Assembly (NCBI GenBank): GCA_944474755.1
Contig: OX104116.1
Location: forward strand, 7,195,547-7,259,546
Length of the DNA stretch: 64,000 nucleotides
Reading direction: 5' to 3'
Origin: Limnoperna fortunei
Lineage: Eukaryota > Mollusca > Bivalvia > Mytilida > Modiolidae
Shown: in pieces, positions 12,614 to 48,240 of the stretch
Layout of the letters: every line of letters begins with the position of its first letter
How positions within the stretch are numbered: the stretch's first letter is position 1
The notes under the pieces: model-generated
What the model was told of the DNA's origin: nothing
Database searches by the model: none
The model's input: the letters and a program-made list of their open reading frames with translations, nothing else
Position numbers and translations under genes: made by a program

Positions 12614-15600
12614 TACAAGCCTAGAAGATTATGCAACGATACAAATGACAGTGTTTCTTGTCAAAAATTTAGACAAAGACTGACCAACGAATGGCCTTAG
12701 TCATTGAATGTCAATATAAATAAATGACGTAAACAAGTCCTAACATGTTGATCTTAAACTTTCTCACTCCAACTGAACCCAAAATAGTTGCTTCCCAGTA
12801 CGCCACCAGCGGACGGACGTGCCGTGCTGTTACTTGGCTTTGCTCAAATATTCCAACAAGATGTAATCAAAATTACCATTATTTTTTGTTCATGTTTGTC
12901 GATCCGATACTAAGTTTACTGGTTGGTACATTCTTTAGATTTTGTATATAATATTTTGAACTACCTGTATTGTGTATTTACACGATCCCAGTGGACTTAT
13001 ATTATTCCATCGCCAAATGAAAAAATACTTTAAGCATTTAGAGTTAAACGCCACTGATGAATCTTAAGTAGACAAAACGCACGTCTGGCGTATTGAATTT
13101 GTCACCTTGGTAATTTTAATAGTTCCTTGACATCATTTTTTCACCTTTTTTTTTCAAAACAGGTTATGCTCTATAATATGGTTTGGGTCTGTTTACACCA
13201 ATCATAAACCCCTTTGTGGTTTATTTGGTGTAAACAGACCATAACCATCTTATAATCTGTTCAGAAATTTGATGTATTCTTTTAATAAATTTATTTTTGT
13301 TACTTGTGCCTAAAGTAGAAGTACATCTGGAGATACTACTGGATATTTTTATTTATAAAATGTTTTCTTGACCTGGTAATAAGGATATTTTGCATATTTT
13401 AACAGAATAGCAGTCCATCAAGTCCAGGTGATATATTTGTGCCGCCTACACCAGCTTATAAGGAAACAAATGACCTTGTTGTCCTTGACAACCCTGAGGA
13501 AGAAGAAAGAAAGTTTCTAGAGAAACAACTGTACAAGTGTCATCCATTAGAAAGCTATTTTGATACCATCTGTGACAATGCTAGTTACCAGGTAGGTTTT
13601 CTGTGTTGAAAGCTGAGTCCAGATACAAGAAACAGCAGCAATATTTCAAATACATTTCTGTTATCTGTTAAGGTTTTTTTCTGTGTACTCCAGCTTCATC
13701 CCCCAATAAAAAAAAATCACCATTTAAACAAGGATTTCCATTATCGGGAATTTAATGCAATACTTGTAAATTATTTCCAAATAGACTATATTGATTAGAA
13801 ATAAACAGATTTTGATTGGATGATGACTGGCATCAATCTCAAGGCTGATATCAGACTGGTATTAAGTTATATTTCAAGTCATGTTAAAATAGCGAAGGTG
13901 AGGTGCAAAATGGTCAAATTCTGTTTAATTTCTTTACAAAAATCTTTTAAAGGTTTAAAGATTCATTCTTAAAGATAAAGGAAGATTTAAACAAATTATT
14001 ATTTTAGTTTTTTTTTTTTTTTGTACAAGAAGGGTCTTCATGCAATATAAACCAATGTAAATTAAATAGTTTTATTTGTTCATAAATTAGTAATTCTGTT
14101 TGTTATTTCGCAATTCTTTTAGAAATACCAGTTAGACAGAATTGCCTTGCATGACAGTAAGCGAGCAACATATGAACACACAAAGAAATGTGCTGAAAAT
14201 TATGTGATGTTAGGACAAACAGACAGAGCTGTACAGTTACTACTGGAGACAGAACCAGATAATGATGTTTACTATACAGATTGTCTGAGGTAGGTACCAG
14301 TAGTATTAGGACACACAGACAGAGCTGTATAGATACTGGAGACAGAACCAGATAATGATGTTTACTATACAGATTGTGATAACAATATTTATACCCCCAC
14401 TGGCCAATAGGAGCTAAAGGTATACTGTTTTCAGTCTGTGTGTTAGTGTGTGCATCATCACCTTTTTTCTCAGCAGTGATAAATGATCTCTCTGAAGTTA
14501 TTTCATCAAGGAACATAAGGTCACAACAAAACTTGTTTGGATTATTTACTTCAATGGTTTCTACAAAAACTTTTGATAAAGTAGGATAGACTTTTATTCA
14601 ATATTAAAGGTTAAAAAACATTGTAAGGTAGTTAACAAATTGTTTTACCAATAAATCTGTAAGATACTTATAGAGTTTATCAGTATGCATAAAACAGCTC
14701 CACCCAGCTGACGTATTGTATGGGTTGTATATTTCAGAGCCTGTTTAGTTGCCAGTATAAGATTTTCTGGTGCTTCACAGAGTACCATTAAACTGGTAGC
14801 AACCAATCTGATTGCAAATGGAAAACTTGCAGGTAAGTACTGTTGTAAAAGTCAGCATGATTGGCAGAGGTTTTTTAGCAACAAATAAAAACTGATTACT
14901 GCATTTGGTGGAGCTTATGGTCCTTTGTAGGTTGAAAAAGGTGTGAATTGAAATCAACAATTATTTTCCACATCTAATCAGTGTTTTGAAATGTGGTATT
15001 TTTTGTTTCATTATACCCCCCGCAAACTTGTTTGGGGGGTTATATAGGAATCACCCTGTCTGTCAGTCCGTCTGTCCATGTCCCTTGTAAGCGCTTCTCC
15101 TCCTAAACCGCTTGACAGATTTTGATGAAACTTTACATGAAGAAAGTACATCATATGTAGATGTGCATGAAGATTTTTTATTGCTGTTGGATATTATTCA
15201 GGGGAGATAATTGGACTTAGACTTTTAAAATATAGTATTCAGTGTGAGACCTCGTAAGCACACTCCTCCTAAACCGTTTGACAGATTTTGATGAAACTTT
15301 ACATGAAGGAAGTACATCATATGTAGATTTGCATGAAGAATTTTCGTCGCTGTAGGATATTATTCAGGGTAGATAATTGGACTTGAAGCGAAGCAGGGGG
15401 TAACCCCTTTGTGAGCGTGCTCATAGTCCACACTTGTTTTGATAGGACGATTTTAGAATGATACGGTAAGCTAGGAGCAGGCGATTGTTTTCTGTTCTAT
15501 ACCTTTCTGGAAAAATTTTGTTTGCGGGGTTGAGTTGGGAAAAGTCTCCTGTTTTTCCAAATACCATTGAACATCAAGAAAGCAGACAAACTTTTGTAAA

Positions 15601-18600
15601 CTCAGTAAGGTCCCCCTGCAAACAAAAATGGCTGACTTTCAATGTAAAACTCATGTAGCAAACAAGAACACATTGTGTAATGCAAACAGAAGAAAATTAT
15701 AAAATATGGACAGGTTATAGTGGATAAATTTGTTCTACTGGATTTTCATAATACAAATGTACAGTATTGAATAAGAAATAAATGCAAGCCAAAAAACACT
15801 CCACTGGGGTGTGATGTTAACTATAAACAACATGAAGAACAGGTACACTGATACATGGTGATCAACTACAGGTGGTATACCATATAATTACTGACTTTTT
15901 AAGTGCAGACTATTTACCAAGATGCTGTTAAATATCAATTACCATGCTTTTTTGTTTAGTAGAATTGTCACATGAAACTTTCTTATTTGTTTAAATATTA
16001 TTGGAACCAAGTATTCCTTTATGCAGCATAATAATGTAAAGTGACTGATTACAATCCATTTTCAGAGGGAATACAGCTGTTATGTTTGATAAACAAAGGT
16101 TTAGACGCATGTCGGTATCTACAGACTTACAGTGAATGGGACCAAGCTGTGTGGCTTGCTAAGGTAATCTATAAACATTCAGATGATTTTAAAACCAGAT
16201 TGAAAAATGATTTTATTTCACTGATGACCTAGAAAATGTACAGACAAAAATGACAGCAATTCTAAAAATGCCATGGGTGTTTTTTATTCTATCATGAATT
16301 GCCAAAATGAATGGTCTGCATGGTTTTCAGAAAATCATATACTTTAGTGGAAATGGTAGACTTTTGTAAACAACGCAATGTCCCTTTAGAAGCAAGAATT
16401 GCTGACTTACTATGTAAAATTTCCATAGCAAAAGTTAAGGACGATTTGTGGTATGTAAACAACAGAGGCATGGTATAAAATATGGTCAGGTAATTGTGGG
16501 AAAATTGTATCTATTGGATTTTTGTAACACAAAGGTACAATATGTGATAGTAAAAAGATTCATGCGAAAAACTGAGTGCACAGGGGGTGTGACTTTTAAT
16601 ATAGTTTAGAATTGTAGTTCTCCTCATACATTGAATAAAGATTTAATTGTGTTTTAAATTTTATTCCATTTAACCTTGAAATTATGATAACATATTGTGC
16701 CCTTGACTCTTGTTTCAGTCAACACTTAACTATAGTGATTGTGCAGAAGTAATGAAGAGATGGGTGGATCACTTATGTAGTCCTCATGTCAATCAAAAGG
16801 TCAGTGAAATAGATGGGTGGATCACTTATGTAGTCCTCATGTCAATCAAAAGGTCAGTGAAATAGATGGGTGGATCATCTATGTAGTCCTCATGTCAATC
16901 AAAAGGTCAGTGAAATAGATGGGTGGATCATCTATGTAGTCCTCATGTCAATCAAAAGGTCAGTGAAATAGATGGGTGGATCATCTATGTAGTCCTCATG
17001 TCAATCAAAAGGTCAGTGAAATAGATGGGTGGATCACTTATGTAGTCCTCATGTCAATCAAAGGGTCAGTGAAATAGATGGGTGGATCATCTATGTAGTC
17101 CTCATGTCAATCAAAAGGTCAGTGAAATAGATGGGTGGATCATCTATGTAGTCCTCATGTCAATCAAAAGGTCAGTGAAATAAATGGGTGGATCACTTAT
17201 GTAGTCCTCATGTCAATCAAAAGGTCAGTGAAATAGATGGGTGGATCATCTATGTAGTCCTCATGTCAATCAAAAGGTCAGTGAAATAGATGAGTGGATC
17301 ATCTATGTAGTCCTCATGTCAATCAAAAGGTCAGTGAAATAGATGGGTGGATCATCTATGTAGTCCTCATGTCAATCAAAAGGTCAGTGAAATAGATGGG
17401 TGGATCACTTATGTAGTCCTCATGTCAATCAAAAGGTCAGTGAAATAAATGGGTGGATCACTTATGTAGTCCTCATGTCAATCAAAAGGTCAGTGAAATA
17501 GATGGGTGGATCATCTATGTAGTCCTCATGTCAATCAAAAGGTCAGTGAAATAGATGGGTGGATCATCTATGTAGTCCTCATGTCAATCAAAAGGTCAGT
17601 GAAATAAATGGGTGGATCACTTATGTAGTCCTCATGTCAATCAAAAGGTCAGTGAAATAGATGGGTGGATCATCTATGTAGTCCTCATGTCAATCAAAAA
17701 GTCAGTGAAATAGATGGGTGGATCACTTATGTAGTCCTCATGTCAATCAAAGGGTCAGTGAAATAGATGGGTGGATCATCTATGTAGTCCTCATGTCAAT
17801 CAAAAGGTCAGTGAAATAGATGGGTGGATCACTTATGTAGTCCTCATGTCAATCAAAAGGTCAGTGAAATAGATGGGTAAATCATCTATGTAGTCCTCAT
17901 GTCAATCAAAAAGTCAGTGAAATAGATGGGTGGATCATCTATGTAGTCCTCATGTCAATCAAAAGGTCAGTGAAATAGATGGGTGGATCATCTATGTAGT
18001 CCTCATGTCAATCAAAGGGTCAGTGAAATAGATGGGTGGATCATCTATGTAGTCCTCATGTCAATCAAAGGGTCAGTGAAATAGATGGGTAAATCATCTA
18101 TGTAGTCCTCATGTCAATCAAAGGGTCAGTGAAATAGATGGGTGGATCATCTATGTAGTCCTCATGTCAATCAAAAGGTCAGTGAAATAGATGGGTGGAT
18201 CATCTATGTAGTCCTCATGTCAATCAAAAAGTCAGTAAAATAGATGGGTAAATCATCTATGTAGTCCTCATGTCAATCAAAGGGTCAGTGAAATAGATGG
18301 GTGGATCATCTATGTAGTCCTCATGTCAATCAAAAAGTCAGTGAAATAGATGGGTGGATCATCTATGTAGTCCTCATGTCAATCAAAAGGTCAGTGAAAT
18401 AGATGGGTAAATCATCTATGTAGTCCTCATGTCAATCAAAGGGTCAGTGAAATAGATGGGTGGATCATCTATGTAGTCCTCATGTCAATCAAAGGGTCAG
18501 TGAAATAGATGGGTAAATCATCTATGTAGTCCTCATGTCAATCAAAGGGTCAGTGAAATAGATGGGTGGATCATCTATGTAGTCCTCATGTCAATCAAAA

Positions 18601-21600
18601 GGTCAGTGAAATAGATGGGTGGATCATCTATGTAGTCCTCATGTCAATCAAAAAGTCAGTAAAATAGATGGGTAAATCATCTATGTAGTCCTCATGTCAA
18701 TCAAATGGTCAGTGAAATAGATGGGTGGATCATCTATGTAGTCCTCATGTCAATCAAAAAGTCAGTGAAATAGATGGGTGGATCATCTATGTAGTCCTCA
18801 TGTCAATCAAAAGGTCAGTGAAATAGATGGGTAAATCATCTATGTAGTCCTCATGTCAATCAAAGGGTCAGTGAAATAGATGGGTGGATCATCTATGTAG
18901 TCCTCATGTCAATCAAAAGGTCAGTGAAAAAGATGGGTGGATCATCTATGTAGTCCTCATGTCAATCAAAGGGTCAGTGAAATAGATGGGTGGATCATCT
19001 ATGTAGTCCTCATGTCAATCAAAAGGTCAGTGAAATAGATGGGTGGATCATCTATGTAGTCCTCATGTCAATCAAAAAGTCAGTGAAATAGATGGGTAAA
19101 TCATCTATGTAGTCCTCATGTCAATCAAAGGGTCAGTGAAATAGATGGGTGGATCATCTATGTAGTCCTCATGTCAATCAAAAAGTCAGTGAAATAGATG
19201 GGTGGATCATCTATGTAGTCCTCATGTCAATCAAAGGGTCAGTGAAATAGATGGGTAAATCATCTATGTAGTCCTCATGTCAATCAAAAAGTCAGTGAAA
19301 TAGATGGGTAAATCATCTATGTAGTCCTCATGTCAATCAAAGGGTCAGTGAAATAGATGGGTGGATCATCTATGTAGTCCTCATGTCAATCAAAAAGTCA
19401 GTGAAATAGATGGGTAAATCATCTATGTAGTCCTCATCTCAATCAAAAAGTCGGTGAAATAGATGGGTAAATCATCTATGTAGTCCTCATGTCAATCAAA
19501 GGGTCAGTGAAATAGATGGGTGGATCATCTATGTAGTCCTCATGTCAATCAAAAAGTCAGTGAAATAGATGGGTAAATCATCAATGTAGTCCTCATGTCA
19601 ATCAAAAAGTCAGTGAAATAGATGGGTAAATCATCAATGTAGTCCTCATGTCAATCAAAAAGTCAGTGAAATAGATGGGTAAATCATCTATGTAGTCCTC
19701 ATGTCAATCAAAGGGTCAGTGAAATAGATGGGTAAATCATCTATGTAGTCCTCATGTCAATCAACGTCAGTGAAATAGATGGGTGGATCATCTATGTAGT
19801 CCTCATGTCAATCAAAGGGTCAGTGAAATAGATGGGTGGATCATCTATGTAGTCCTCATGTCAATCAAAGGGTCAGTGAAATAGATGGGTGGATCATCTA
19901 TGTAGTCCTCATGTCAATCAAAAAGTCAGTGAAATAGATGGGTGGATCATCTATGTAGTCCTCATGTCAATCAAAAAGTCAGTGAAATAGATGGGTAAAT
20001 CATCTATGTAGTCCTCATGTCAATCAAAAGGTCAGTGAAATAGATGGGTGGATCATCTATGTAGTCCTCATGTCAATCAAAAAGTCAGTGAAATAGTGGT
20101 TGGATTATCTATGTAGTCCTCATGTCAATCAAAAAGTCAGTGAAATAGATGGGTGGATCATCTATGTAGTCCTCATGTCAATCAAAAAGTCAGTGAAATA
20201 GATGGGTGGATCATCTATGTAGTCCTCATGTCAATCAAAAAGTCAGTGAAATAGATGGGTAAATCATCTATGTAGTCCTCATGTCAATCAAAAAGTCAGT
20301 GAAATAGATGGGTAAATCATCTATGTAGTCCTCATGTCAATCAAAGGGTCAGTGAAATAGATGGGTGGATCATCTATGTAGTCCTCATGTCAATCAAAGG
20401 GTCAGTGAAATAGATGGGTGGATCATCTATGTAGTCCTCATGTCAATCAAAAAGTCAGTGAAATAGATGGGTAAATCATCTATGTAGTCCTCATGTCAAT
20501 CAAAGGGTCAGTGAAATAGATGGGTGGATCATCTATGTAGTCCTCATGTCAATCAAAGGGTCAGTGAAATAGATGGGTGGATCATCTATGTAGTCCTCAT
20601 GTCAATCAAAAAGTCAGTGAAATAGATGGGTAAATCATCTATGTAGTCCTCATGTCAATCAAAAGGTCAGTGAAATAGATGGGTAAATCATCTATGTAGT
20701 CCTCATGTCAATCAAAAGGTCAGTGAAATAGATGGGTAAATCATCTATGTAGTCCTCATGTCAATCAAAAAGTCAGTGAAATAGATGGGTAAATCATCTA
20801 TGTAGTCCTCATGTCAATCAAAGGGTCAGTGAAATAGATGGGTGGATCATCTATGTAGTCCTGATGTCAATCAAAGGGTCAGTGAAATAGATGGGTAAAT
20901 CATCTATGTAGTCCTCATGTCAATCAAAAAGTCAGTGAAATAGATGGGTGGATCATCTATGTAGTCCTCATGTCAATCAAAAAGTCAGTGAAATACAGTC
21001 TCGTGCCAAAAGTATTCACGGAAAAATGGCCGACGTTTTTAGATATTTCACTTCGCGCTGTTTTTATTTTATTTTTTTATACCAATTATCTTGCGATTTT
21101 TACTTTGAGAACTTCCCCGTGTACTTGAAAGCATTCCAAATCGATGACGTAAAAATCGTCTGCAATAAACTATTACATTGTAATATTTTTGATGTAAATA
21201 AACATGGGTCGCAAATCAAAAGAATTGTCACCGGACAAGAAAGAAGTGATCGTCAATTTAAAGTCTGATGGATATAGAATAAGTGAAATATCTAGGATGT
21301 TGGGAATACCTGAGAGTACTTGCAGATCGATTTTGAAAACTTACAAAGCACGGAAAAGTTTTGAAATAGGCCATCGTTCTGGACATCCAAGAAAAGTGTC
21401 AAAACGGGGCGAATCCCGATTGAAGCGTCTGGTGAAAAGGCATCGCGGAAAAGCACTAAAGGATATTACCACCGAATTTAATGTTGGAAATGGTGAAAAC
21501 TGTTTTAGTGCGAGGACTGTCCAGAGATTTTTGCACAGGAATCAGATTTACCGGCGAGTTGTGAAAAAACAGATGGTTGTCAAAGGGGCGAATAGAAGGA

Positions 21601-24600
21601 AGCGGATAACATGGTGTTTACAGAAAAGAAGATGGACCGTGAATGATAACTGGAGACATGTTATATTTAGTGATGAATCTCAAATAGTTATAGGCCAAAA
21701 CAACCGTGTATATGTGTGGAGATCGTCCCAGGAAGCGTATCGTCCAGAATGCATGTATGCAGAGTGTGTGCCTAAGGTTTCTGTTATGGTATGGGGTTGC
21801 ATCACTTGGTTTGGTGTCGGTACTCTTTGTAAGGTCGATGGAAGTATAAATGCCCAGAAATATATTTCAATACTTGACGATCAGTTATGGCCAGTTATAG
21901 CCCGTCATTTCCCAGACGATTCCTACACTTTCCAAGATGACAACGCCCCCGTCCATAGGGCTCGGATTGTGGAACGTTACAAGCATGAAAATAATATCCA
22001 TGGTATGGTATGGCCTGCCCAATCTCCGGACATTAATATCATAGAAAACTGTTGGCTTAGAATTAAAAGAACTCTACAAACACGTGTTAGGAGAATAACA
22101 AAACCCCAGGAACTGTTTGATGCAATTTTTGACATCTGGCAAACCTTCACGGTTGAATATGTACAAAACTTATATAATTCCATTCCAAGGAGAGTTTTGG
22201 CTTGCATTAGATCCAAGGGACACCTAACAAAATATTAAGGTAAGTCATAGCTTTATTTTAATATTTTTTGCTTGTTTTACTATTCAAGGCGAGATAACTC
22301 CAAGATGACGTCTGCCATTTTTCCGCGAATACTTTTGGCACGAGACTGTAGATGGGTAAATCATCAATGTAGTCCTCATGTCAATCAAAGGGTCAGTGAA
22401 ATAGATGGGTAAATCATCTATGTAGTCCTCATGTCAATCAAAGGGTCAGTGAAATAGATGGGTGGATCATCTATGTAGTCCTCATGTCAATCAAAAAGTC
22501 AGTGAAATAGATGGGTGGATCATCTATGTAGTCCTCATGTCAATCAAAAAGTCAGTGAAATAGATGGGTGGATCATCTATGTAGTCCTCATGTCAATCAA
22601 AAAGTCAGTGAAATAGATGGGTAAATCATCTATGTAGTCCTCATGTCAATCAAAAGGTCAGTTTAATAGATCTACTTAGCATTGTGTTCAGTAATGTAAG
22701 AAAATTGCCTGATATTTTTAAGACAATTTACATTTCTTATGCATTGTAGATCATTTGTGAACAGTTTCATTATCTGTCATCACTGTTCACTGATAGGAAG
22801 AAGAGAAGGGTTATCTAAGGGGAGATAATACAACAAACTTAGATGGGAGGTAATGAGGTCATTATCCATTTGGATGGCCTGTGCAAAAGTAACCGAACGG
22901 GCGAGACATCAAAATTTATTATTAAAAAAATCTTTCTTTCACCTAAAATTTTATATATGGGGCATTACACATATAATGCTAAATTACATAAAAATGGAGA
23001 AAAAAGTATACATGTCCACGGACTTTTTGTGGGAATTTTACCTTAAAGTTTAAGAATGGTTTTTCTACTTTCATTTCAATGTTGTGGTCACATTGTACCA
23101 CATTACACACTTTAGGAAGTGCTTCCACTGTAAAGACGTTGCCTGGAAAAAAAATTATATTTTCGTTCTACAGTAATGCCATACGTTTCAAAATATCCAA
23201 CTCTTCAGCAATAGCAGTTATAAGCAAAAGCAGAAACAAAAGAGAAAATTGGGACTATTTTTTTCATCCTGCCATGCTTTGACATGCACTGGAAATTCAT
23301 TCCATGAATAGGATAATGACCCCTAATCCTTGTATCTAAGGGGAGATAATACAACAGACTTAAATGGGAATTAATGGTTACAATAAACCATCTATTTAAT
23401 ATTGAATTTTCCATATGGGGTACCTGCAATTAAGATTTTATGTGTGGAAATCCTCTCAATTTAAACCTCGGAAAGCAGTTACTTGTGTATGTTGAAATGT
23501 TAGACTACATTATTAACAAATAAAAAAATATATTTCGTCAGCAAAAATTACCGAAAATGGTGAAAAAAATCATCACTGAATGAAACTAACAAAATTTCTA
23601 ACCCCCCCCCCCCCTCTTTTTTTTTAAAAATCTCTATTTTCCAGGCTCTTATAAATGCTCCCCCAGATATTGGAGATTTTCAATCAATAATGTTTTTATT
23701 TTTTTTAATTTTGATATTTTTAGATTGATTGATTGATTGATTAATGGGATATTTTTAGAACCCCAACATCCAATCAGATGCATCTGTGTATTTTCATCTG
23801 ATTACGATCTTGGGTTCAAATTTCCCGGTGTAATGTAAACAAATAATTGGTTTATTGTAACCTAATTCTTGTATCTAAGGGGAGATAATACAACAAACGT
23901 AGATGGGACGTAATACATGCATAGAAAGCTTACATTTTTGTATTTCTATATTTAGCTTTAAAAAATAATATATTTCTGTATGATTTGTCAAGTAGGCTAT
24001 GCTCATATAAAAAAGATATATAAACATATGTTTGTTTTGTAATTGGAGATAAAACAATATAATTGCTAGTACCAAGCATTGGAAAGCATGATATTAAATG
24101 TTTATTTTCTTCCATGAGCATAGGATATGAAAAAATGGGGCATTAAATGGTAACCTGCCACATTTTACTGCAGCCTACAGTTTATCTCAAAAGACAATTT
24201 TTACCTTGACCTTGGACCTATAAAAATAATTTTTCAGATTGGCACGACACAAAAACTACATATGGTATTGTGCTGAAAATTCAACTTGATTTTCATTTTA
24301 TAGTACTTAACAAAATTTGTTTTTCAAGTAATCTTGAAAAAAGCCAATTTAGAAACGGTCAACTGTTGACCAACAAAATTGGCCTAAGTCACTACTTAAC
24401 AGCTGTGCAAAGTTTAAACATCATTTCTTGACATGTTTTCAAGTAATCATCTGGAAACCTCCAACTGAAATGAAAAACAAAATAAGAATTGGTGTAGGTC
24501 TAAAACTACAAATTGGATTGTGCTGAAAATTGAACTTGATCTTTGTTTTATAGTACTTAACAGCTGTAAAAAGTTTAAACAAAATCTGTTGACACTTTTT

Positions 24601-27600
24601 CAAGTTATCATCTGGAAACCACAGAGGCACGGACAGATGGACCCTCATATTGGAGGGTATAACATAATACCCTGACGTTTTGTGTGGCGGTATATAAAAG
24701 TCGCAAATTTGAACTGGAGGGGTTGCGTAGCAAGTGCCTTAATAAATGGTGAATGATTTAAAATTTGTTAGAAGAAGATTCTGGGTCTGTGTCAAAAATG
24801 CAGAAGGAGTTGATTACCCAAAACAGAACCATCATGTATAAAGTGTGCTAAAAAAACTAAGTTCCTTTGACTAGAAAAAATGGAAAACTTTCCTTCAACA
24901 ATTCCATATTAGCAGGTGCACAATAGCAATATGTGTGCAATATTTCTGTGATTTTCAGGGTTGAAAGCAGAAGGAGGAGTATGTAGACTGATAAAGTTTG
25001 CTAACAAATGATCCCAAGTTCCTAAGTCTGCATAATTAGGAAAAAAATCCCATAAAAGTAGGTGCACAACTTCAATACATTTGCAATCTTTTTGTGAAGT
25101 TTTAGAGATCTGCAGCCATATTCTCAAAAAATTGTAAATTTACACTTACCTGTAAAGATAAGATAATCGTAACTTTACGTTTATGTCTACGATTGATTGT
25201 ATTCTCGAAAGTAATCGCAGTTTTGCACGTAAAACGACAATCGTAAATCTTACGTTTTGCACGTAGCGTTATCACGCATGCTCAGTTACTTCTTTCACTT
25301 TGGAAATAAACGTATTGAATGGGAAATAATTACCTCAAAGTACTTAAATTATTACAGTTTTTTAATTGCATAACCTCACAAAGCAGTTGACTGGTGGAAG
25401 GAAATACGGATTTATATTTGGCTAAAGTGATATTAAAAACAATTAATAAATAAATAAATAAATAAAATAAAGTCATGATATTAGTTGGTGTGTTGCATAA
25501 TTTTTAATATGTCAATTTACCGTAACGTGGAACAACACCTTTTTTAAAGTTATGTTTCTTCATTGTAGAAATTAACGAGTAGTTTCGTGTTATAATAAAG
25601 CAATAAATAACCTAATCAAATTTTAACATAAATAAAACAGCATGATGTAAAATCGCAAATCATATAGGAAACATTTAATTTCCGGAACGTTTTTTCATAA
25701 ATTCGGTTGTTGTTTCTTTCTTTTAAAATTTATAAATTTTTGTAAGAGTTATTCCCCATGAGTAACACATTTTCAAAATATTGGCAAATTTTGAATGTTT
25801 TTTCCGTCGTTCTATGTCACGTGCAACAAAATCAATGATGCTAAGTAGTGAATGGCTTGAAAAACGATTTCTCTTTGCAAAATTATGAGGGACGCTAGGA
25901 CTTACGAACGCTCAGGAGCAGACGTAAGTTCACGATCAATTTTACAGGTAACTTACATCTACGAATCTTTGAGAATATTAAAACACACGTAAACTTACGC
26001 TACGTTTAAAATTACGTCTACGATTTTTTGAGAATATGGCTGCTGGGTTGAAAACTGTAAGAGTTAATTACATAAATTAGTTACCATATTTTCCCTGACC
26101 ACACACCCATCTTCACCATACTATAATCTTGGTGCAACCCTGCAAAAAATACAGTTGAAGAAGAACATTCAAATTATGTAACCACTTATTCAATTTATTA
26201 CTTATTTTAAAAATGTCATATTGCTAATAATTTTTATACAAAAAATTTCAGAGTAAAGCAGTACTGGTGCAGCTGTCGTTAGGACAGTTTACCAAGGTTC
26301 TGGAGATGTTATATGGTATGAGGCAGTTTAACAGAGCAGCATGTTTTGCAGAGGCTTGTACACAGTTTGGACTCCTGGATAGCTCAGAAGAAACAGGTAT
26401 GGTCTTTATGTGTTTGTACACAGTTTGGACTGCTGGATAGCTCAGAAGAAACAGGTATGGTCTTTATGTGTTTGTACACAGTTTGGACTGCTGGATAGCT
26501 CAGAAGAAACAGGTATGGTTTTTATGTGTTTGTACACAGTTTGGACTGCTGGATAGCTCAGAAGAAACAGGTATGGTCTTTACTAGTGTGTACACAGTTT
26601 GGACTGCTGGATAGCTCAGAAGAAACAGGTATGGTCTTTATGTGTTTGTACACAGTTTGGACTGCTGGATAGCTCAGAAGAAACAGGTATGGTCTTTATG
26701 TGTTTGTACACAGTTTGGACTCCTGGATAGCTCAGAAGAAACAGGTATGGTCTTTATGTGTTTGTACACAGTTTGGACTGCTGGATAGCTCAGAAGAAAC
26801 AGGTATGGTCTTTACTGGCTTTGTACACAGTTTTGACAGCTGGATAGCTCTGAAGAAACAGGTATGGTCTTTATGTGTTTGTACACAGTTTGGACTGCTG
26901 GATAGCTCAGAAGAAACAGGTATGGTCTTTATGTGTTTGTACACAGTTTGGACTGCTGGATAGCTCAGAAGAAACAGGTATGGTCTTTATGTGTTTGTAC
27001 ACAGTTTGGACTGCTGGATAGCTCAGAAGAAACAGGTATGGTCTTTACTAGTGTGTACACAGTTTGGACTGCTGGATAGCTCAGAAGAAACAGGTATGGT
27101 CTTTACTAGTGTGTACACAGTTTGGACTCCTGGATAGCTCAGAAGAAACAGGTATGGTCTTTACTAGTGTGTACACAGTTTGGACTGCTGGATAGCTCAG
27201 AAGAAACAGGTATGGTCTTTACTAGTGTGTACACAGTTTGGACTGCTGGATAGCTCAGAAGAAACAGGTATGGTCTTTACTAGTGTGTACACAGTTGGGA
27301 CTGCTGGATAGCTCTGAAGAAACAGGTATGGTCTTTACTGGTTTGTACACAGTTTGGACTCCTGGATAGCTCTGAAGAAACAGGTATGGTCTTTACTGGT
27401 TTGTACACAGTTTGGACTCCTGGATAGCTCTGAAGAAACAGGTATGTTCTTTACTGGCTTGTACACAGTTAGGACTGCTGGATAGCTCTGAAGAAACAGG
27501 TATGGTCTTTACTAGTTTGTACAAAGTTTGTACTGCTGGATAGCTCAGAAGATACAGGTATGGTCTTTACTGGCTTGTACACAGTTTGGACTCCTAGATA

Positions 27601-30600
27601 GCTCTGAAGAAACAGGTATGGTCTTTACTGGTTTGTACACAGTTTGGACTCCTGGATAGCTCTGAAGAAACAAGTATGGTCTTTACTAGTTTGTACAAAG
27701 TTTGGACTGCTGGATAGCTCTGAAGAAACAGGTATGGTCTTTACTGGCTTGTACACAGTTAGGACTGCTGGATAGCTCAGAAGAAACAGGTATGGTCTTT
27801 ACTAGTTTGTACAAAGTTTGGACTGCTTGATAGCTCTGAAGAAACAGGTATAGTCTTTACTGGCTTGTACACAGTTTGGACTCCTGGATAGCTCTGAAGA
27901 AACAGGTATGGTCTTTACTGGTTTGTACAAAGTTTGGACTGCTTGATAGCTCTGAAGAAACAGGTATAGTCTTTACTGGCTTGTACACAGTTTGGACTCC
28001 TGGATAGCTCAGAAGAAACAGGTATGGTCTTTATGTGTTAGTACACAGTTTGGACTCCTGGATAGCTCAGAAGAAACAGGTATGGTCTTTATGTGTTTGT
28101 ACACAGTTTGGACTCCTGGATAGCTCTGAAGAAACAGGTATGGTCTTTACTAGTGTGTACACAGTTTGGACTCCTGGATAACTCAGAAGAAACAGGTATG
28201 GTCTTTATGTGTTTGTACAGTTTGGACTCCTGGATAGCTCAGAAGAAACAGGTATGGTCTTTACTGGCTTGTACACAGTTTGGACTCCTGGATAGCTCAG
28301 AAGAAACAGGTATGGTCTTTACTGGCTTGTACACAGTTTGGACTGCTGGATAGCTCTGAAGAAACAGGTATGGTCTTTACTGGCTTATACACAGTTTGGA
28401 CTCCTGGATAGCTCTGAAGAAACAGGTATGGTCTTTACTGGTTTGTACACAGTTTGGACTCCTGGATAGCTCTGAAGAAACAGGTATGGTCTTTACTGGC
28501 TTGTACACAGTTTGGACTCCTGGATAGCTCTGAAGAAACAGGTATGGTCTTTACTGGCTTATACACAGTTTGGACTGCTGGATAGCTCATAAGAAACAGG
28601 TATAGTCTATACTGGTGTGTAAAGAGAGAGAGCATTAGAGATTAAGGCTAAGATGAACCAGTCTTTGAAGCCGAAATTGATTATTCTAAAGTTATAAACC
28701 CGAGTGAAGATGTGTTCCCCTTATGTTTTTTTTTGGTGTTAAATCAAAGTTGTATTTTTATTTAATTTAATAGATAAAAAAATAAAATAATAGGCTTCTG
28801 AGACTCGTAAAGTTTTAACAACATTTCATCTTTTGACTTAATCAAATAATGCATACACACAGTTAAATCAGCAATACAAACAGGATGTCTGCTTAGCCAG
28901 TCTGTCAGCAATACAAACAGGATGTCTGCTTAGCCAGTCTGTAAGCAATACAAACAGGATGTCTGCTTAGCCATTCTGTAAGCAATACAAACAGGATGTC
29001 TGCTTAGCCAGTCTGTCAGCAATACAAACAGGATGTCTGCTTAGCCAGTCTGTCAGCAATACAAACAGGATGTCTGATTAGCCAGTCTGTCAGCAATACA
29101 AACAGAATGTCTGCTTAGCCAGTCTGTCAGCAATACAAACAGGATGTCTGCTTAGCCAGTCTGTCAGCAATACAAACAGGATGTCTGCTTAGCCAGTCTG
29201 TCAGCAATACAAACAGGATGTCTGCTTAGCCAGTCTGTCAGCAATACAAACAGGATGTCTGCTTAGCCAGTCTGTCAGCAATACAAACAGAATGTCTGCT
29301 TAGCCAGTATACATGAAACTCAAAGCAGAGTTCAACTGTGTAAGCCTATGTGCTAAAGTTCTGTTTCCTTGGTAACAACCTGTGATCTTCTGTCTGGTTA
29401 CCATGGTAAAACATGGAAAGGATTATACCCCCTGCTTGAAAAGCGGGGGGTATATAGTGTTCATGGTGTCCGTCCGTCCGTCTGTCCGTCTGTTACACTT
29501 TCTATTATTTGCAACTCCTCCTACACCACTGAAAGGAATTTGATGAAACTTACACAGAATCTTTGTCTCATAGTGCCATTGTGCAGGAGATATTTAACAT
29601 TTTGATCCGAATGATATTTGGGGTTTCCCATAGAAAAACATGGACTTTGTCATTGACCTAAGGGGGTCTCTATCTCTTATGTGCAACTCCTCCTACACCA
29701 CTGAATGGAATTTAATGAAACTTACACAGAATCCTTGTCACATAGTGCCATTGTGCAGGAGATATTAAACATTTTGATCGGATCGATATTTGGGGTTTAC
29801 CATAGAAAAACATGGACATTGTCATTGACCTAAGGGGGTCTTCATCTCTTATGTGCAACTCCTCCTACACCACTGAATGGAATTTAATGAAACTTACACA
29901 GAATCCTTGTCACATAGTGCCATTGTGCAGGAGATATTAAACATTTTGATCGGATCGATATTTGGGGTTTCCCATAGAAAAACATGGACATTGTCATGAC
30001 CTAAGGGGGTCCTCATCTCTTATGTGCAACTCCTCCTACACCACTGAATGGAATTTAATGAAACTTACACAGAATCCTTGTCCCATAGTGCCATTGTGCA
30101 GGAGATATTAAACATTTTGATCGGATCGATATTTGGGGTTTCCCATAGAAAAACATGGATTTTGTCATTGACCTAAGGGGGTCCTCATGTCTTATGTGCA
30201 ACTCCTCCTACACCACTGAATGGAATTTGTTGAAACTTACACAGAATCCTTGTCACATAGTGCCATTGTGCAGGAGATATTTATTATTTTGATCGGAATG
30301 ATATTTGGGGTTTCCCATAGAACAACACGGACTGTCATTGACATAAAGGGGATACCCATTTCTTATGTGCGACTCCTCCTACACCACTAAATGGAATTTG
30401 ATGAAACTTACACAGAATGTTGTCACATATTGCCATTGTGCACTAGAAATATAACATTTCGATTGTAATGATATTTGGGGTTTCCCATAGAAAAACATGG
30501 ACTTTGTCATGGACATAAGGGATACCCATCTCTTATGTGCAACTCATTCCTACACCACTGAATGGTATTTGTTGAAACTTACACAGAATCCATGTTACAT

Positions 30601-31247
30601 AGTGCCATTGTGCAGGAGATATTTAACATTTTGATCGGAATGATATTTGGGGTTTCCCATAGAAAAACATGGAGTTTGTAATGGACATAATGGGATACCC
30701 ATCTTTTATTTGCACTTCCTCCTACACCACTGAATGGAATTTGTTGAAACTTATACAGAATCTTGGTCGCAAATTGCCATTGTGCATTGGATATTAAACA
30801 TTTTGATCAGAATATTATTGGAGGTTTGCCATAGAAAAACATGGACTTTGTCATTGACATAGGGGATGCCATTCTTTGGGGGATTGGGGAGGGTTACATG
30901 TATTATCTGCAATTTCGCCTTCACGTTTAACTAGATAAAGTTTCAATTTCATAAATAATTAAGAACACTTGAATTTTCAAAGTTATTGTGAAGCGGGGGG
31001 TATCAATGGTGAGCATTGCTCACAGGTGTTTTTACTCTAGTTTAATATATATTAAAAAGTACATAAAAAATATTGTACTATATTTCTGTTATTATATATT
31101 TCAGTTTCATTGGTGGAGGCTATATATTTAGAGTATGCAAGATTCTTGTCCAATCTGGGTTACAGAAAAGCTGCAGAGTTCTATTGTAGTAAAGCTGGAG
31201 ATAAAGGGGAACAGTTCTTGAAAGAAGTTGAAATTTTATTTACATAA
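57..31247 (+). CDS. WDR11: WDR11 orthologue, C-terminal 13 exons (5' end outside window)
   Basis: Joined exons are 57-163, 6392-6512, 8054-8222, 9193-9367, 11245-11310, 12279-12360, 13406-13591, 14123-14289, 14738-14832, 16066-16163, 16719-16799, 26252-26396 and 31105-31247. All are bounded by AG/GT and all phases agree, giving 545 codons including TAA. The translation follows vertebrate WDR11 in order: the last WD repeats (GDMDGQLSVWDL), then an alpha-solenoid with HQPWNGDY, CLLVSRLFGDES, LGQTDRAVQLLLET, VDHLCSPHVNQK and NLGYRKAAEFY. The vertebrate protein has about 1,220 residues, so this is roughly its last 45%. In vertebrates WDR11 works with FAM91A1 in tethering endosome-derived vesicles at the trans-Golgi and is linked to Hedgehog signalling and hypogonadotropic hypogonadism; that role is carried over by homology only. 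The introns are unusually repeat-rich, and three exons have their 3' ends tandemly copied into the next intron. Identification is firm; exact exon edges are inferred by eye. Confidence 0.93.
176..350. repeat. Three tandem ~62-64-bp intronic units
   Basis: Units starting near 181, 243 and 307 share CTTGTTTTGG, GAAATACAAC and CTTGGATAACTC. They begin about a dozen bases after the splice donor at 164 but do not resemble the exon. The third unit is the most diverged. Confidence 0.7.
421..656 (+). mobile_element. Left part of a satellite-core element (GGGGTAT family), interrupted
   Basis: The element starts at a hairpin-forming end, TACCCCCAGCAAACTAGTT followed by a run of G, then (C)TGTCTGTCCG repeats and a segment containing TTGACAGATTTTGATGAAAC. 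The same text is uninterrupted at 15012-15440. Here another element is inserted after 656, and the right part resumes at 3091 and ends near 3285 with GAAGCGGGGGTATCCC and a GTGAGCCTGCTCAC hairpin. Confidence 0.75.
657..3090 (+). mobile_element. Non-autonomous element with tandem ~167-bp satellite core
   Basis: The ends are GCTCACCTGAGGGTCATG on the left and, on the right, TCAGGTGAGCG followed by a GGCTCTTAAGAGCC hairpin and CTCTGG. GCTCACCTGA and TCAGGTGAGC are inverted repeats. The interior holds about 13 tandem monomers of 165-168 bp, each with GGACTTAGTTTAACATAGG, GAAATTCAAAATGGC and ATTGTTTGGATGGTCCTCT. A higher-order period of about 667 bp (four monomers) is visible: the text at 1246 recurs at 1913. 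TTTA flanks both sides (653-656 and 3091-3094), and the related element at 15012 shows the empty site. The architecture resembles bivalve pearl/Helentron-type elements, but the TTTA duplication leaves the class open. Open frames inside are repeat text, not genes. Confidence 0.75.
828..6144. repeat. 2.66-kb tandem segmental duplication
   Basis: Segment 828-3483 is repeated at 3484-6140 with a period of 2656-2657 bp and only scattered single-base differences, for example TAGGGTATT near 3206 against TAGGATATT in copy 2. The unit runs from inside the satellite element to inside a SINE fragment. At the junction the four bases AGTT are shared by both breakpoints, pointing to microhomology-mediated duplication or an assembly duplication. 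Open frames at 1234, 1913, 3891 and 4570 are copies of the same monomer text. Confidence 0.85.
3091..3285 (+). mobile_element. Right part of the interrupted GGGGTAT-family element (copy 1)
   Basis: The text resumes with AAATATAGTATTCAGG, contains TTGACAGATTTTGATGAAAC again, and ends GAAGCGGGGGTATCCC plus the GTGAGCCTGCTCAC hairpin. The duplicate lies at about 5748-5942. Confidence 0.7.
6064..6180 (-). mobile_element. tRNA-headed SINE fragment, minus strand
   Basis: Read on the minus strand it begins CTGAGTGGTTAAGGTTG, a tRNA-like A box, followed by TGATCACGTG and ATAGCTAAA-type text as in the complete SINEs at 34657 and 56127. The duplication breakpoint near 6141 lies inside it, so the copy at about 3407-3487 lacks the tRNA-like head. 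Confidence 0.6.
6392..6512 (+). CDS. WDR11: WDR11 exon
   Basis: The acceptor TTTATAG precedes the exon and the donor is AAG|GTATGG. The first base completes an Arg codon split across the intron. The peptide includes IRFAPGRGNTKFVVLYNDG, a WD-repeat strand pair that matches WDR11. It ends in phase 0. Confidence 0.92.
6666..6935. mobile_element. 270-bp MITE with TA flanks
   Basis: The left end TAGTGGATTCCTCTTAATTG and the right end (inverse CAGTGGGTTTCCCTTAATTG) are imperfect inverted repeats flanked by TA at 6664-6665 and 6936-6937. This is consistent with a Tc1/mariner-type non-autonomous element. No coding content is seen. Confidence 0.7.
7070..7352 (+). mobile_element. Diverged GGGGTAT-family element
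   Basis: It starts GAAGAGGGGTATACCG, then CTGTTCATCTG repeats, and ends GCAGGGGTATCACTAGTGAG with a decayed GTGAGCATTTGCTT hairpin. It contains about one internal unit. The open frame over it looks like repeat text. Confidence 0.55.
8054..8222 (+). CDS. WDR11: WDR11 exon
   Basis: The exon follows CAACAATGTAG and ends CTTCCAG|GTTAGT in phase 1. It encodes VDWSGSDRPVVATHDGC, a WD-repeat blade near the end of the second propeller. An alternative acceptor four bases downstream would break the frame with the previous exon. Confidence 0.9.
8373..8460 (-). mobile_element. SINE 3'-end fragment, minus strand
   Basis: On the plus strand it reads GGCCACTTTCGGCAATTATT and a decayed CATCAGTTTTTATTG, the inverse of the AACTGG..GCTGAAAAATTGCTGAAAG tail of the window's SINE family. 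Confidence 0.55.
9193..9367 (+). CDS. WDR11: WDR11 exon
   Basis: The acceptor is TTATTCAG and the donor GATCA|GTATGT (phase 2). Two bases complete a split Glu codon. The peptide contains KYFLHHQPWNGDYL, a highly recognisable WDR11 motif at the start of the alpha-solenoid. Confidence 0.93.
9478..9868. mobile_element. Two SINE copies in inverted, tail-to-tail arrangement
   Basis: A plus-strand copy (9478-9689) ends GCTGAAAGTAGCGTTAAAC plus CAAACAAACAAAA. A minus-strand copy (9697-9868) starts TTTGTTTGTTTGATGG and AACGCCACTTTCAGC. The pair can form a stem of about 170 bp in the WDR11 pre-mRNA. Confidence 0.75.
9874..11020. repeat. ~22-24-bp minisatellite, split by an element
   Basis: The core GTCAGTATTACATTGGTATT repeats with drift at 9874-9975 and 10513-11020. 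Degraded early units appear near 9410. A satellite-core element (9985-10500) interrupts it, and a partial SINE tail (10906-10975) lies inside. The open frames over it (10547-10814) are low-complexity artefacts. Confidence 0.8.
9985..10500 (+). mobile_element. GGGGTAT-family element with ~2.5 internal units
   Basis: It starts GCCAGGGGTATAATG followed by CCCGTCCGTCTGTGCAGG and ends GCCTGGGGTATTGTGAGC with a GTGAGCTTGCTCAC hairpin. Inside, about 2.5 copies of a ~170-bp unit share TGCTTGGATGGGATTGATT and CAAGGGGGACCATATTTTTG. These monomers are unrelated to those at 657-3090. Confidence 0.7.
11245..11310 (+). CDS. WDR11: WDR11 exon (66 bp)
   Basis: A T-rich tract and ACAG precede the exon; the donor is TCAAG|GTATGA, phase 2. 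It encodes YGVAERCLLVSR, matching the vertebrate LLVSRLYG region, whose remainder continues in the next exon. Confidence 0.92.
11470..11775 (+). mobile_element. Repeat element with TGGCG..GGTAT ends
   Basis: It begins CGAAGTGGCGAGGTATTATG and GTTATACCCTC, continues with CCGTCCTACTGTCCCCC and GTTTCCAGATGATAACTTG, and ends CGTGGCGGGGTATC. An inverted relative lies at 24170-24715. Confidence 0.6.
12017..12170. mobile_element. 154-bp foldback MITE
   Basis: The ends AAAATCATACTGCCCTTG and AAGGGCAGTATGATTTT are inverted repeats. Pairing extends through ATTATCACCTGAAGGA and TCCTTCAAGTGATAAT, so nearly the whole element folds into one hairpin. Confidence 0.75.
12279..12360 (+). CDS. WDR11: WDR11 exon (82 bp)
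   Basis: The acceptor is AATTCCAG and the donor AATTAAG|GTAAGT. One base completes a split Arg codon. The peptide RLFGDESDLLFWTVALYYL matches the WDR11 GDES..FWTVA motif. Confidence 0.93.
12569..12608. repeat. (TA)n microsatellite
   Basis: About 19 perfect TA dinucleotides follow GAATTATATA. Confidence 0.9.
13055..13140. repeat. Interspersed repeat with AAACGCACGTCTGGCGT core
   Basis: The core ACAAAACGCACGTCTGGCGT followed by ACCTTGGTAATTTT recurs at 37310-37375. This motif is, from memory, very common in mussel genomes. Confidence 0.6.
13178..13250. repeat. Foldback palindrome
   Basis: GGTCTGTTTACACCAA and TTGGTGTAAACAGACC are perfect inverted arms around a short loop that itself contains TAAACC/GGTTTA. 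The outer arms (ATAATATGGTT and its decayed partner) extend it. Confidence 0.75.
13406..13591 (+). CDS. WDR11: WDR11 exon (62 codons)
   Basis: Acceptor TTTTAACAG, donor TACCAG|GTAGGT, phase 0 at both ends. The peptide has a Ser/Pro-rich linker, an acidic helix (NPEEEERKFLEKQL) and ESYFDTICDNASYQ, which aligns with the vertebrate CYDVLCENAYFQ segment. The linker is the least conserved part. Confidence 0.9.
14123..14289 (+). CDS. WDR11: WDR11 exon with partial 3'-end duplication
   Basis: The acceptor is TTCTTTTAG and the donor CTGAG|GTAGGT, phase 2. The peptide includes LGQTDRAVQLLLETEPDN, near-identical to vertebrate WDR11. The last 75 coding bases recur just downstream in the intron. Confidence 0.93.
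14306..14377 (+). repeat. Second copy of the exon 3' end (intronic)
   Basis: Positions 14210-14284 of the exon recur at 14306-14377 (offset 96, then a 3-base deletion) with TTAGGACA, CAGACAGAGCTGTA and CAGATAATGATGTTTAC. The copy reads GATTGTGATAAC where the exon has GATTGTCTGAGGTAGG, so it lacks the splice donor and is not a usable exon end. Confidence 0.9.
14390..14480 (+). mobile_element. Left-end fragment of a GGGGTAT-family element
   Basis: TATACCCCCACTGGCCAATA followed by GTATACTG and CAGTCTGTGTGTTAG resembles the left end of the satellite-core elements. No right end is seen before the next exon. Confidence 0.4.
14738..14832 (+). CDS. WDR11: WDR11 exon
   Basis: Acceptor ATATTTCAG, donor GCAG|GTAAGT, phase 1 at the end. 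The peptide STIKLVATNLIANGKLA matches vertebrate WDR11 almost residue for residue. Confidence 0.94.
15012..15440 (+). mobile_element. Complete short GGGGTAT-family element
   Basis: It begins ATACCCCCCGCAAACTTG and a G run with (C)TGTCAGTCCG repeats. It carries two copies of a ~165-bp unit (TTGACAGATTTTGATGAAAC ... GGGGAGATAATTGGACTT) and ends GAAGCAGGGGGTAACCCC with GTGAGCGTGCTCAT. It is the uninterrupted relative of the element split by an insertion at 656/3091. Confidence 0.8.
15590..15820 (+). repeat. Interspersed repeat, first of a pair flanking a WDR11 exon
   Basis: Shared landmarks with 16365-16600 include TTTTGTAAAC, GCTGACTT, ATAAAATATGG, CAGGT, ATTGGATTTT (or CTGGATTTT) and GGGTGTGA in the same order. 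By eye the copies look diverged, and exon 16066-16163 lies between them. Confidence 0.6.
16066..16163 (+). CDS. WDR11: WDR11 exon
   Basis: Acceptor CATTTTCAG, donor GCTAAG|GTAATC, phase 0 at the end. Two bases complete a split Glu codon. The peptide LLCLINKGLDACRYLQT and WDQAVWLAK matches vertebrate WDR11. Confidence 0.94.
16365..16600 (+). repeat. Interspersed repeat, second of the pair
   Basis: This is the partner of 15590-15820 in the same orientation, on the other side of exon 16066-16163. No coding content is seen. Confidence 0.6.
16719..16799 (+). CDS. WDR11: WDR11 exon whose 3' half seeds the 53-bp array
   Basis: Acceptor TTGTTTCAG, donor CAAAAG|GTCAGT, 27 codons in phase 0. The peptide ends RWVDHLCSPHVNQK, as in vertebrate WDR11, and joins in frame to SKAVLVQLSL of the next exon at 26252. 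The last 41 bases of the exon are the first part of array unit 1. Only this first donor gives the conserved junction: reading past it meets TAG after about two extra units. Confidence 0.95.
16759..20995 (+). repeat. 53-bp exon/5'-splice-site minisatellite, 80 units
   Basis: The unit comprises 41 bases of exon 16719-16799 (GATGGGTGGATC ... CAATCAAAAG) and 12 bases of intron (GTCAGTGAAATA). Unit starts at 16759 and 16812 fix the 53-bp period, and 4,237 bp equals 80 units less three deleted bases (short units near 19765 and 20095). Nearly every unit retains a donor-like GTCAGT. Variants are GGTGG versus GGTAA at the start, CACTTATG versus CATCTATG, and AAAAG, AAAGG or AAAAA before GT. The array resumes at 22351 beyond a transposon. 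Copy number could be affected by assembly. Confidence 0.97.
20996..22348 (+). mobile_element. Intact Tc1/mariner (DD34E) transposon inside the array
   Basis: The element is 1,353 bp. Both ends begin CAGTCTCGTGCCAAAAGTAT on their own strands and the inverted repeats continue to about 42 bp with two or three mismatches. TA flanks it at 20994-20995 and 22349-22350, and the TA belongs to the array unit (GAAATA|GATGGG), so it inserted after the array had expanded. It contains one uninterrupted transposase frame. Confidence 0.96.
21204..22238 (+). CDS. Tc1-family transposase, DD34E, 344 aa
   Basis: The protein cuts and pastes its own element by recognising the terminal inverted repeats. Visible parts in order: a paired-type helix-turn-helix region (about residues 8-50; ISEISRMLGIPESTCRSIL), a basic linker with GHRSGHPRK (about 56-64) in the place of the GRPR motif, a second helical DNA-binding part (about 70-120), then the catalytic core. 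The catalytic acids are D157 in FSDES, D246 in FQDDNAPVH and E281 in SPDINIIENCW, with 34 residues between D246 and E281 (DD34E). Length is typical for Tc1 transposases. The start is the ATG of MGRKSKELS, about 208 bp inside the left end; no frameshift or stop is present. All motifs are intact, so it may be active; it could also have been captured recently. Confidence 0.96.
   Translation: MGRKSKELSPDKKEVIVNLKSDGYRISEISRMLGIPESTCRSILKTYKARKSFEIGHRSGHPRKVSKRGESRLKRLVKRHRGKALKDITTEFNVGNGENCFSARTVQRFLHRNQIYRRVVKKQMVVKGANRRKRITWCLQKRRWTVNDNWRHVIFSDESQIVIGQNNRVYVWRSSQEAYRPECMYAECVPKVSVMVWGCITWFGVGTLCKVDGSINAQKYISILDDQLWPVIARHFPDDSYTFQDDNAPVHRARIVERYKHENNIHGMVWPAQSPDINIIENCWLRIKRTLQTRVRRITKPQELFDAIFDIWQTFTVEYVQNLYNSIPRRVLACIRSKGHLTKY
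22351..22668 (+). repeat. 53-bp array, last 6 units
   Basis: Units start at 22351, 22404, 22457, 22510, 22563 and 22616. The last reads AAAAGGTCAGTTTAATAGAT and leaves the array. AGAT at this exit matches AGAT at the array entry in the exon, suggesting a microhomology origin. The total is 86 units on both sides of the transposon. Confidence 0.95.
22669..24160. other. Intron with three spaced copies of a GGGGAGATAATACAAC motif
   Basis: CTAAGGGGAGATAATACAAC occurs near 22816, 23338 and 23876, each followed by a variant of CTTAGATGGGA and TAAT. The intervals are about 520-540 bp with little similarity between. There is also a GATTGATTGATTG run near 23723. No coding exon is supported. Confidence 0.55.
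24170..24715 (-). mobile_element. Inverted relative of the 11470-11775 repeat
   Basis: On the minus strand it begins with CCGCCACACAAAACGTCAGG and ATTATGTTATACCCTCC, then CATCTGTCCGTGCCTCTG and GGTTTCCAGATGATAACTTG, the same order as at 11480-11575. CAAGT[TA]ATCATCTGGAAACC occurs twice (near 24440 and 24602), about 160 bp apart, so the interior is a short tandem repeat. Confidence 0.65.
25113..26042. mobile_element. 930-bp non-autonomous DNA transposon
   Basis: The terminal inverted repeats CAGCCATATTCTCAAAAAAT and its inverse are nearly perfect for about 23 bases and are flanked by CTG on both sides. Subterminal regions are rich in ACGTAA/TTACGT motifs (CTTACGTTTTGCACGTAGCG). No reading frame of note is present. 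The superfamily is not clear; a 3-bp duplication would fit PIF/Harbinger by size but not by its usual TWA. Confidence 0.75.
26252..26396 (+). CDS. WDR11: WDR11 exon whose 3' end seeds the 58-59-bp array
   Basis: Acceptor AATTTCAG, donor AAACAG|GTATGG, phase 1 at the end. The peptide starts SKAVLVQLSLGQF and ends EACTQFGLLDSSEET, matching the vertebrate SKALLVLLSLG..FVEAC segment. Reading past the donor meets TAG in the second unit, so only the first donor is productive. It joins 31105 to complete Val. Confidence 0.93.
26357..28620 (+). repeat. 58-59-bp exon/5'-splice-site minisatellite, ~38 units
   Basis: The unit is 40 bases of exon 26252-26396 (TGTACACAGTTTGGACT ... GAAGAAACAG) plus 18-19 bases of intron (GTATGGTCTTTATGTGTTT or ..TTTACTAGTG, ..TTTACTGGCT). 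Almost all units keep the CAG|GTATGG donor. Subtypes (CTCAGAAG versus CTCTGAAG, CTCCTGG versus CTGCTGG) are clustered, as expected from unequal exchange. Open frames at 26700-26963 and 28093-28353 only read the repeat. Confidence 0.96.
28869..29308. repeat. 37-bp minisatellite, ~12 units
   Basis: The unit contains CAGCAATACAAACAGGATGT and CTGCTTAGCCAGTCTGT and is almost invariant. It does not match any WDR11 exon in the window. Confidence 0.93.
29424..31028 (+). mobile_element. GGGGTAT-family element with ~8 satellite monomers
   Basis: The left end forms a hairpin, TATACCCCCTGCTTGAAAAG then CGGGGGGTATATAG, followed by GTCCGTCCGTCTG repeats. The core is about 8 monomers of ~170-178 bp with CAACTCCTCCTACACCACTG, CATAGTGCCATTGTGCAGG and TTTGGGGTTTCCCATAG. 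The right end is GAAGCGGGGGGTATCAATGG plus a GTGAGCATTGCTCAC hairpin. The monomer is unrelated to those at 657 or 9985. Confidence 0.8.
31105..31247 (+). CDS. WDR11: WDR11 terminal exon
   Basis: Acceptor ATATTTCAG. Two bases complete a split Val codon and the frame runs to TAA at 31245-31247. The peptide includes YARFLSNLGYRKAAEFY and SKAGDKGEQFLKE, matching the vertebrate YARSLKNLGFKQGAVLFASKAG..GKDLL segment. The vertebrate acidic tail is replaced by a short VEILFT. Confidence 0.94.
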
Positions 31248-47984: not shown

Positions 47985-48240
47985 ATGGATTTACCTAGTG
48001 TGATTATGTTAATATTAGGTGTGGGATATGTTTATTGTTACCCTTTTAATGAGGGTGATATTCGGTTAGTAGGAGGATCTAGCGACAGTGAGGGAACAGT
48101 GTTAATATTCCATGACAATCTGTGGGGAGCTATTTGTGATTATAACTGGGACATACGAGATGCTAATGTCGTCTGCCGTCAACTCGGTTACCCAAGGGCA
48201 CTGCAGTATATCCAAGGGAGTAGATTCGGTAGAGGAAGGA
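47985..48240 (+). CDS. SRCR gene exon 1: signal peptide and first half of SRCR domain
   Basis: ATG with G at -3 and +4 opens a hydrophobic signal peptide. DIRLVGGSSDSEGTVLIF, NLWGAICDYNWD and NVVCRQLGYPRA are the standard first half of an SRCR domain (C51, C64). The donor is GGAAGGA|GTAAGT, phase 1. Reading on gives only intronic text to a stop near 48336. Confidence 0.92.

Follow-up and report, generated by a model that had tools for sequence, protein, structure and literature searches.

Two donor-spanning tandem arrays in the WDR11 gene of Limnoperna fortunei resemble the mirage minisatellites of amphioxus

Introduction

The original report of mirage minisatellites is said to be that of Canestro in 2002. 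As described in the available excerpts of two papers on amphioxus, mirages consist of tandemly duplicated exon-intron boundaries and are found in Adh3, the globin genes BflGb6 and BflGb9, the troponin C gene and PGBD5, and they are said to leave regular splicing undisturbed (PMC3087553; PMC3902484). According to the same excerpts, they show length instability between haplotypes and concerted evolution inside the array, from which the edge units are excluded (PMC3087553; PMC3902484). Several related cases are described in sources of which part of the text was available. Boundary internal tandem repeats occur in human genes within segmental duplications (PMC2812944), and introns are gained when a segment containing or spanning splice signals is duplicated in tandem (PMC3443670). 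The minisatellite of IFI6 repeats a splice donor, and two of its downstream units are said to be used as donors, giving three mRNA species. Among the open-licence literature matches listed (titles and starts of abstracts), no bivalve case of such repeats was found, and the available part of a paper on tandem repeats of Daphnia yielded nothing on exon borders (PMC3152781).

Here we describe two large arrays of this kind in a bivalve gene. The window, i.e., the whole stretch of DNA that was analysed, comprises 64,000 nucleotides of contig OX104116.1 of Limnoperna fortunei.

The WDR11 gene and its exons

The gene that carries the arrays was identified as WDR11 (WD repeat-containing protein 11) by a PDB match of the translated exons near the arrays (E 2.4e-81). 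Among named homologues, WDR11 of Mytilus edulis comes closest, at 71% in the search and 80% in the alignment. Twelve exons, whose borders were set by eye, were mapped from 6392 to 31247 and join into a single open C-terminal frame of 508 residues followed by a stop codon. The exons that matter most here, with a slash marking the exon end, are:

14123 to 14289, + strand: exon E7; donor GAG/GTAGGT; open in the joined frame, with WDR11 homology
16719 to 16799, + strand: exon E10; its last 42 nt (16758 to 16799), with the donor AAG/GTCAGT and 11 nt of intron, form unit 1 of array B
26252 to 26396, + strand: exon E11; its last 40 nt (26357 to 26396), with the donor CAG/GTATGG and 18 nt of intron, form unit 1 of array C
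31105 to 31247, + strand: last coding exon, with the stop codon; assigned by in-frame join and homology

Neither of the two array junctions carries an insertion in the six WDR11 homologues aligned. In the WDR11 model of Mytilus edulis, the counterparts of the E7 end, of the whole of E8 and of part of E9 (here 14123 to 16163) are missing and a few unrelated residues stand in their place; the structure or the annotation of that gene may also be disturbed in this region. Elsewhere in the window, open frames with SRCR domains are found at 47958 to 48338 and 59977 to 61161, the second of which contains a coding tandem repeat (60457 to 60631), and an open frame at 50111 to 51415, which encodes a reverse transcriptase domain, is probably a retroelement.

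Two donor-spanning arrays and one partial exon copy

Tandem repeats found with TRF and a blastn comparison of the exons with the window gave the following features:

16758 to 20995, + strand: first 80 copies of array B (53-bp unit; TRF), with a copy of the GT donor in each
20996 to 22348, + strand: Tc1/mariner-type DNA transposon within array B; its inverted ends agree at 38 of 40 bases, TA stands on both sides and the transposase frame is open from 21204 to 22235
22349 to 22671, + strand: last 6 copies of array B (TRF), with donors; the array breaks off after the first 4 nt (AGAT) of a new unit
26357 to 28621, + strand: array C, 39 copies of a 58-bp unit (TRF), with a copy of the GT donor in each; the array stops 4 nt (TGTA) into a new unit
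14306 to 14377, + strand: single partial copy of E7 (exon bases 88 to 162 of 167; 92% identity over 75 columns in blastn), without the donor

Both array units thus span the exon 3' end and have the donor within them, with 42 exonic and 11 intronic nt in array B and 40 exonic and 18 intronic nt in array C. TRF gives 80.0 and 6.1 copies for the two parts of array B on either side of the transposon, i.e., 86 copies with the exon's own included, 85 of which are intronic; 85 donor-bearing copies were recognized by an ungapped core, and one copy with an indel lies in the sole gap of 104 bp between them. Array C has 39 copies with the exon's own and 38 intronic ones, by TRF and by ungapped matching of the donor. 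The copies are alike (94-96% TRF matches in both arrays). Pairwise differences between units are nearly flat with increasing lag in array B and rise from 3.6 to about 5 in array C. The units of array B nearest the exon resemble the exon; the exon's AAG precedes the donor in 16 of the first 17 units, and AAA and AGG are mixed in further along. A search of viral contigs with one 21-base core from the array B unit gave no exact match.

The transposon in array B carries the Pfam domains DDE_3 and HTH_Tnp_Tc3_2, with HTH_SB slightly below the cut-off, and is apparently a young insertion. An assembly artefact is an unlikely source of the arrays because the units are not identical and array B is interrupted by a transposon.

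The copy of E7 differs from both arrays. It breaks off 5 nt short of the exon end, is not a repeat array and does not span the exon-intron boundary. The other nine of the 12 mapped exons matched only themselves within the window (blastn, E 0.001). A common origin of the E7, E10 and E11 cases was considered and rejected, the sequences being unrelated and E7 being of a different kind; the E7 copy would instead have arisen on its own, by one short-range duplication of part of the exon.

An earlier note on this DNA had placed duplicated exon ends at 14289, 16799 and 26396, which is correct, and had stated rightly that the repeat sequences are unrelated and that two of the three cases include the donor, namely arrays B and C. 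Its figure of about 38 downstream copies after E11 agrees with our count. The 86 copies that it gave after E10 are reached only with the exon's own copy, and in place of its two copies after E7 there is one. Its view of the three cases as events of one type does not stand, given two donor-spanning arrays on the one hand and one partial, donor-less copy on the other.

Donor use, frame and conservation

Only the first donor of each array leaves the protein open across the next exon, a result obtained with none of the 84 later donors in the ungapped copies of array B and none of the 38 in array C. Donor 2 of array B causes a frameshift, the 83 later donors tested lead to a stop within the extension, and all 38 later donors of array C lead to a stop; neither 53 nor 58 bp is a multiple of 3. 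In splicing, donor 1 is probably the one used and the array would be removed as intron. Where identical 5' splice sites are duplicated, the intron-proximal one is often preferred, and such a preference would disfavour donor 1. Of the two forces that the earlier note had offered for the repeated donors, tolerance is supported by the presence of both arrays in a gene that is open across 12 exons with the frame kept by the first donor only.

The other force, selection for repeated donors, would mean that these donors are functional, either by binding U1 or by feeding a poison-splicing switch that lowers WDR11 output. Consistent with this, GT is retained in all 85 and all 39 ungapped donor copies of arrays B and C, as well as in the indel copy of array B, and the later donors lead to truncated or frameshifted proteins, as those of a poison switch would. 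In array C, variation is also lower at the donor positions than elsewhere in the unit (a mean of 0.56 vs. 2.49 changes per position), which would fit constraint. However, an invariant GT is ordinary in units as homogenized as these, in which 24 of 52 dinucleotide positions of array B and 19 of 57 of array C are invariant, GT included, and conservation equal to that of donor positions +1 to +6 is found in 22 of the 53 six-base stretches of array C. In array B, positions -2 and -1 of the donor vary in 27 and 29 of 85 copies, respectively, and are among the four most variable positions of the unit; in 56 of the 85 copies the AAG of the exon is altered at -2 or -1, with a lower donor-matrix score as the result. 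Conservation specific to the donors is not seen in the arrays. Selected donors were therefore rejected on conservation, GT being no better kept than many other dinucleotides, and we regard functional donors maintained by selection as highly improbable.

Origin of the arrays

From the observed anatomy, copy numbers, array ends, frame loss and donor conservation, we infer how the duplications arose, by which route they expanded and which donor is used. We propose, with good confidence, that arrays B and C are two independent mirage-type minisatellites, i.e., tandem duplications across donors that expanded and are tolerated with the first donor in use, and that the E7 copy is separate from them. 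The tandem duplication of a 53- or 58-bp segment across the exon 3' end and its donor would have come first, probably through a 4-bp microhomology present once in the exon and once in the intron (AGAT in array B, TGTA in array C). Slippage or unequal exchange would then have multiplied the duplicate, leaving the genuine exon end as unit 1, and the arrays would be tolerated passengers that are spliced out as intron rather than selected donors.

The array ends are consistent with such a seeding, which is reconstructed solely from them. The arrays start in the exon with AGAT at 16758 and TGTA at 26357, and the matching word closes each of them in the intron, so that both close at their starting phase, 4 nt into a further unit. 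Such ends would be expected if a duplication had been seeded between 4-bp repeats and then multiplied by whole units, and the probability that two array ends lie within 4 nt of the starting phase by chance is 0.008. The 4-bp words are weak evidence when taken alone, because array B has further matches between the exon and the exit at other unit lengths (45-57), namely four 4-mers and one 5-mer, and array C has none; the case for microhomology consequently rests on the phase. After seeding, the arrays may have been cut back.

Chance of arrays on donors

The existence of arrays of 86 and 39 copies is plainly not due to chance. Whether they fall on donors by chance is a different matter, which was addressed by a placement test with each array collapsed to one unit in a gene stretch of 14,643 bp with 11 donors, E7 being left out as it has no array. 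The probability that at least two of seven arrays with a unit of at least 20 bp lie on donors is 0.051, 0.027 and 0.013 at an exon overlap of at least 1, 20 and 40 nt, respectively, and with nine arrays it is 0.057, 0.028 and 0.013; all these values stand before correction for picking this window. The falling of arrays on donors is thus weakly significant locally. When random units of 53 or 58 bp are placed, donor borders (4082 per 100,000 placements) are about as likely to be hit as acceptor borders (4113), and mid-exon positions are likelier (5972).

These numbers bear on the suggestion that a genome- or lineage-wide tendency to form repeats at exon-intron borders exists, like the one proposed for amphioxus, of which WDR11 would be one instance. 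Three of the 11 donor-bearing exons are affected, two by donor-spanning arrays and one by a partial copy. This count and the P values of 0.013-0.051 for two of seven arrays point in this direction, as do the several such loci of amphioxus listed in the available excerpts. However, the P values lack the correction just mentioned, both 5' and 3' borders are affected in amphioxus as far as these excerpts go, and the units of four other arrays in the gene and of one downstream array have no convincing match among the 12 exons (best E 0.097, with the small array at 9910 outside this comparison). We therefore consider such a tendency improbable. The local process favouring duplication across exon-intron borders that the earlier note had put forward is likewise not shown, the local statistic being weak and E7 being of another kind.

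Two other arrays in the window may be recorded here. A 37-bp array of about 12 copies at 28868 to 29308 shares the intron of array C and has no convincing match to the mapped WDR11 exons. A tandem array at 756 to 5652, with a 167-bp unit and 26-29 copies by differing TRF rows, lies upstream of the mapped exons.

Possible exchange between exon end and array

The differences between the exon and its copies were compared in 84 of the 85 intronic copies of array B and all 38 intronic copies of array C. A difference was called common when its site was seen in at least five copies, a cut-off that we chose, and rare otherwise. Synonymous sites make up six of the eight common differences and three of the 26 rare ones (Fisher P 0.0014, nominal), or four of six vs. 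three of 26 when adjacent co-occurring changes are merged (P 0.012). Two intron-derived columns at the unit junction of array C were dropped for these counts, and keeping them gives seven of 10 vs. three of 26 (P 0.0013). The synonymous fraction expected is 17% (array B) and 24% (array C) for random changes and 33% and 37%, respectively, for transitions alone. Five of the 26 rare variants are stops, and the array as such is therefore free of coding constraint.

The synonymous bias is suggestive of sequence exchange between exon and array. The exon end may then be an exchanging member of the array, through unequal crossing-over or conversion filtered by coding selection, which would add to the origin proposed above rather than replace it. 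Several further observations fit such an exchange: units identical to the exonic part recur at copies 2, 13 and 21 of array B and copies 7, 14, 29 and 34 of array C, the exon's synonymous pair CAC TTA is confined to the first 21 copies of array B, and the mismatch to the exon grows along array B (Spearman 0.61, nominal P 9e-10). However, the gradient is weak in array C (Spearman 0.26, P 0.11), non-synonymous changes account for two of the eight common sites (both of array B), and synonymous substitutions in the exon after seeding would give part of the pattern; moreover, the numbers are small and the copies are not independent, which makes the P values nominal. We hold exchange to be a tentative addition, somewhat less probable than its absence.

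A broader and rather unlikely extension is that a conserved coding exon end here serves as unit 1 of a large, recombining minisatellite and exchanges sequence with it, evolving partly in concert with its dozens of intronic copies under coding selection, and that donor-spanning arrays arise repeatedly in this bivalve lineage. If confirmed in populations, the synonymous bias would demonstrate concerted evolution between a coding exon and an intronic minisatellite.

Comparison with known systems

The earlier note knew of no described class of this kind. The mirages of amphioxus (PMC3087553; PMC3902484) and the boundary repeats of human genes (PMC2812944) had, by the available text of these papers, already been described, and on the same basis the WDR11 arrays belong to a described class, with more copies than in the BflGb6 globin case and two arrays per gene. 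As in mirages, the units of arrays B and C are tens of bp long, span an exon-intron border and carry a splice signal, which is present in many units of mirages and as GT in every copy of arrays B and C. Normal mRNA is reported for mirages, and WDR11 has an open protein frame. The WDR11 arrays differ in being found in a bivalve rather than in amphioxus, in their 86 and 39 copies, compared with six and three in two BflGb6 haplotypes in the available excerpts (PMC3087553; PMC3902484), and in the presence of two arrays in one gene, one of them with a transposon.

The other systems are more distant. In the human cases, as in WDR11, tandem repeat variation sits at exon-intron boundaries; the available text gives 27 intron modifications in recently duplicated paralogues, nearly all with transcript support (PMC2812944), whereas our arrays are read from genomic sequence. 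Like the IFI6 minisatellite, as described in the part of the source available, the WDR11 arrays repeat a donor, but their 53- and 58-bp units break the frame, with 0 of 84 and 0 of 38 later donors staying open. Intron gain likewise involves tandem duplication over splice signals in the available part of its description; a new intron arises there, whereas in WDR11 an existing intron is lengthened (PMC3443670). If our reading holds, mirage-type boundary minisatellites extend beyond amphioxus and reach up to 86 copies, and WDR11 offers a natural test of how the spliceosome chooses the first among many near-identical donors.
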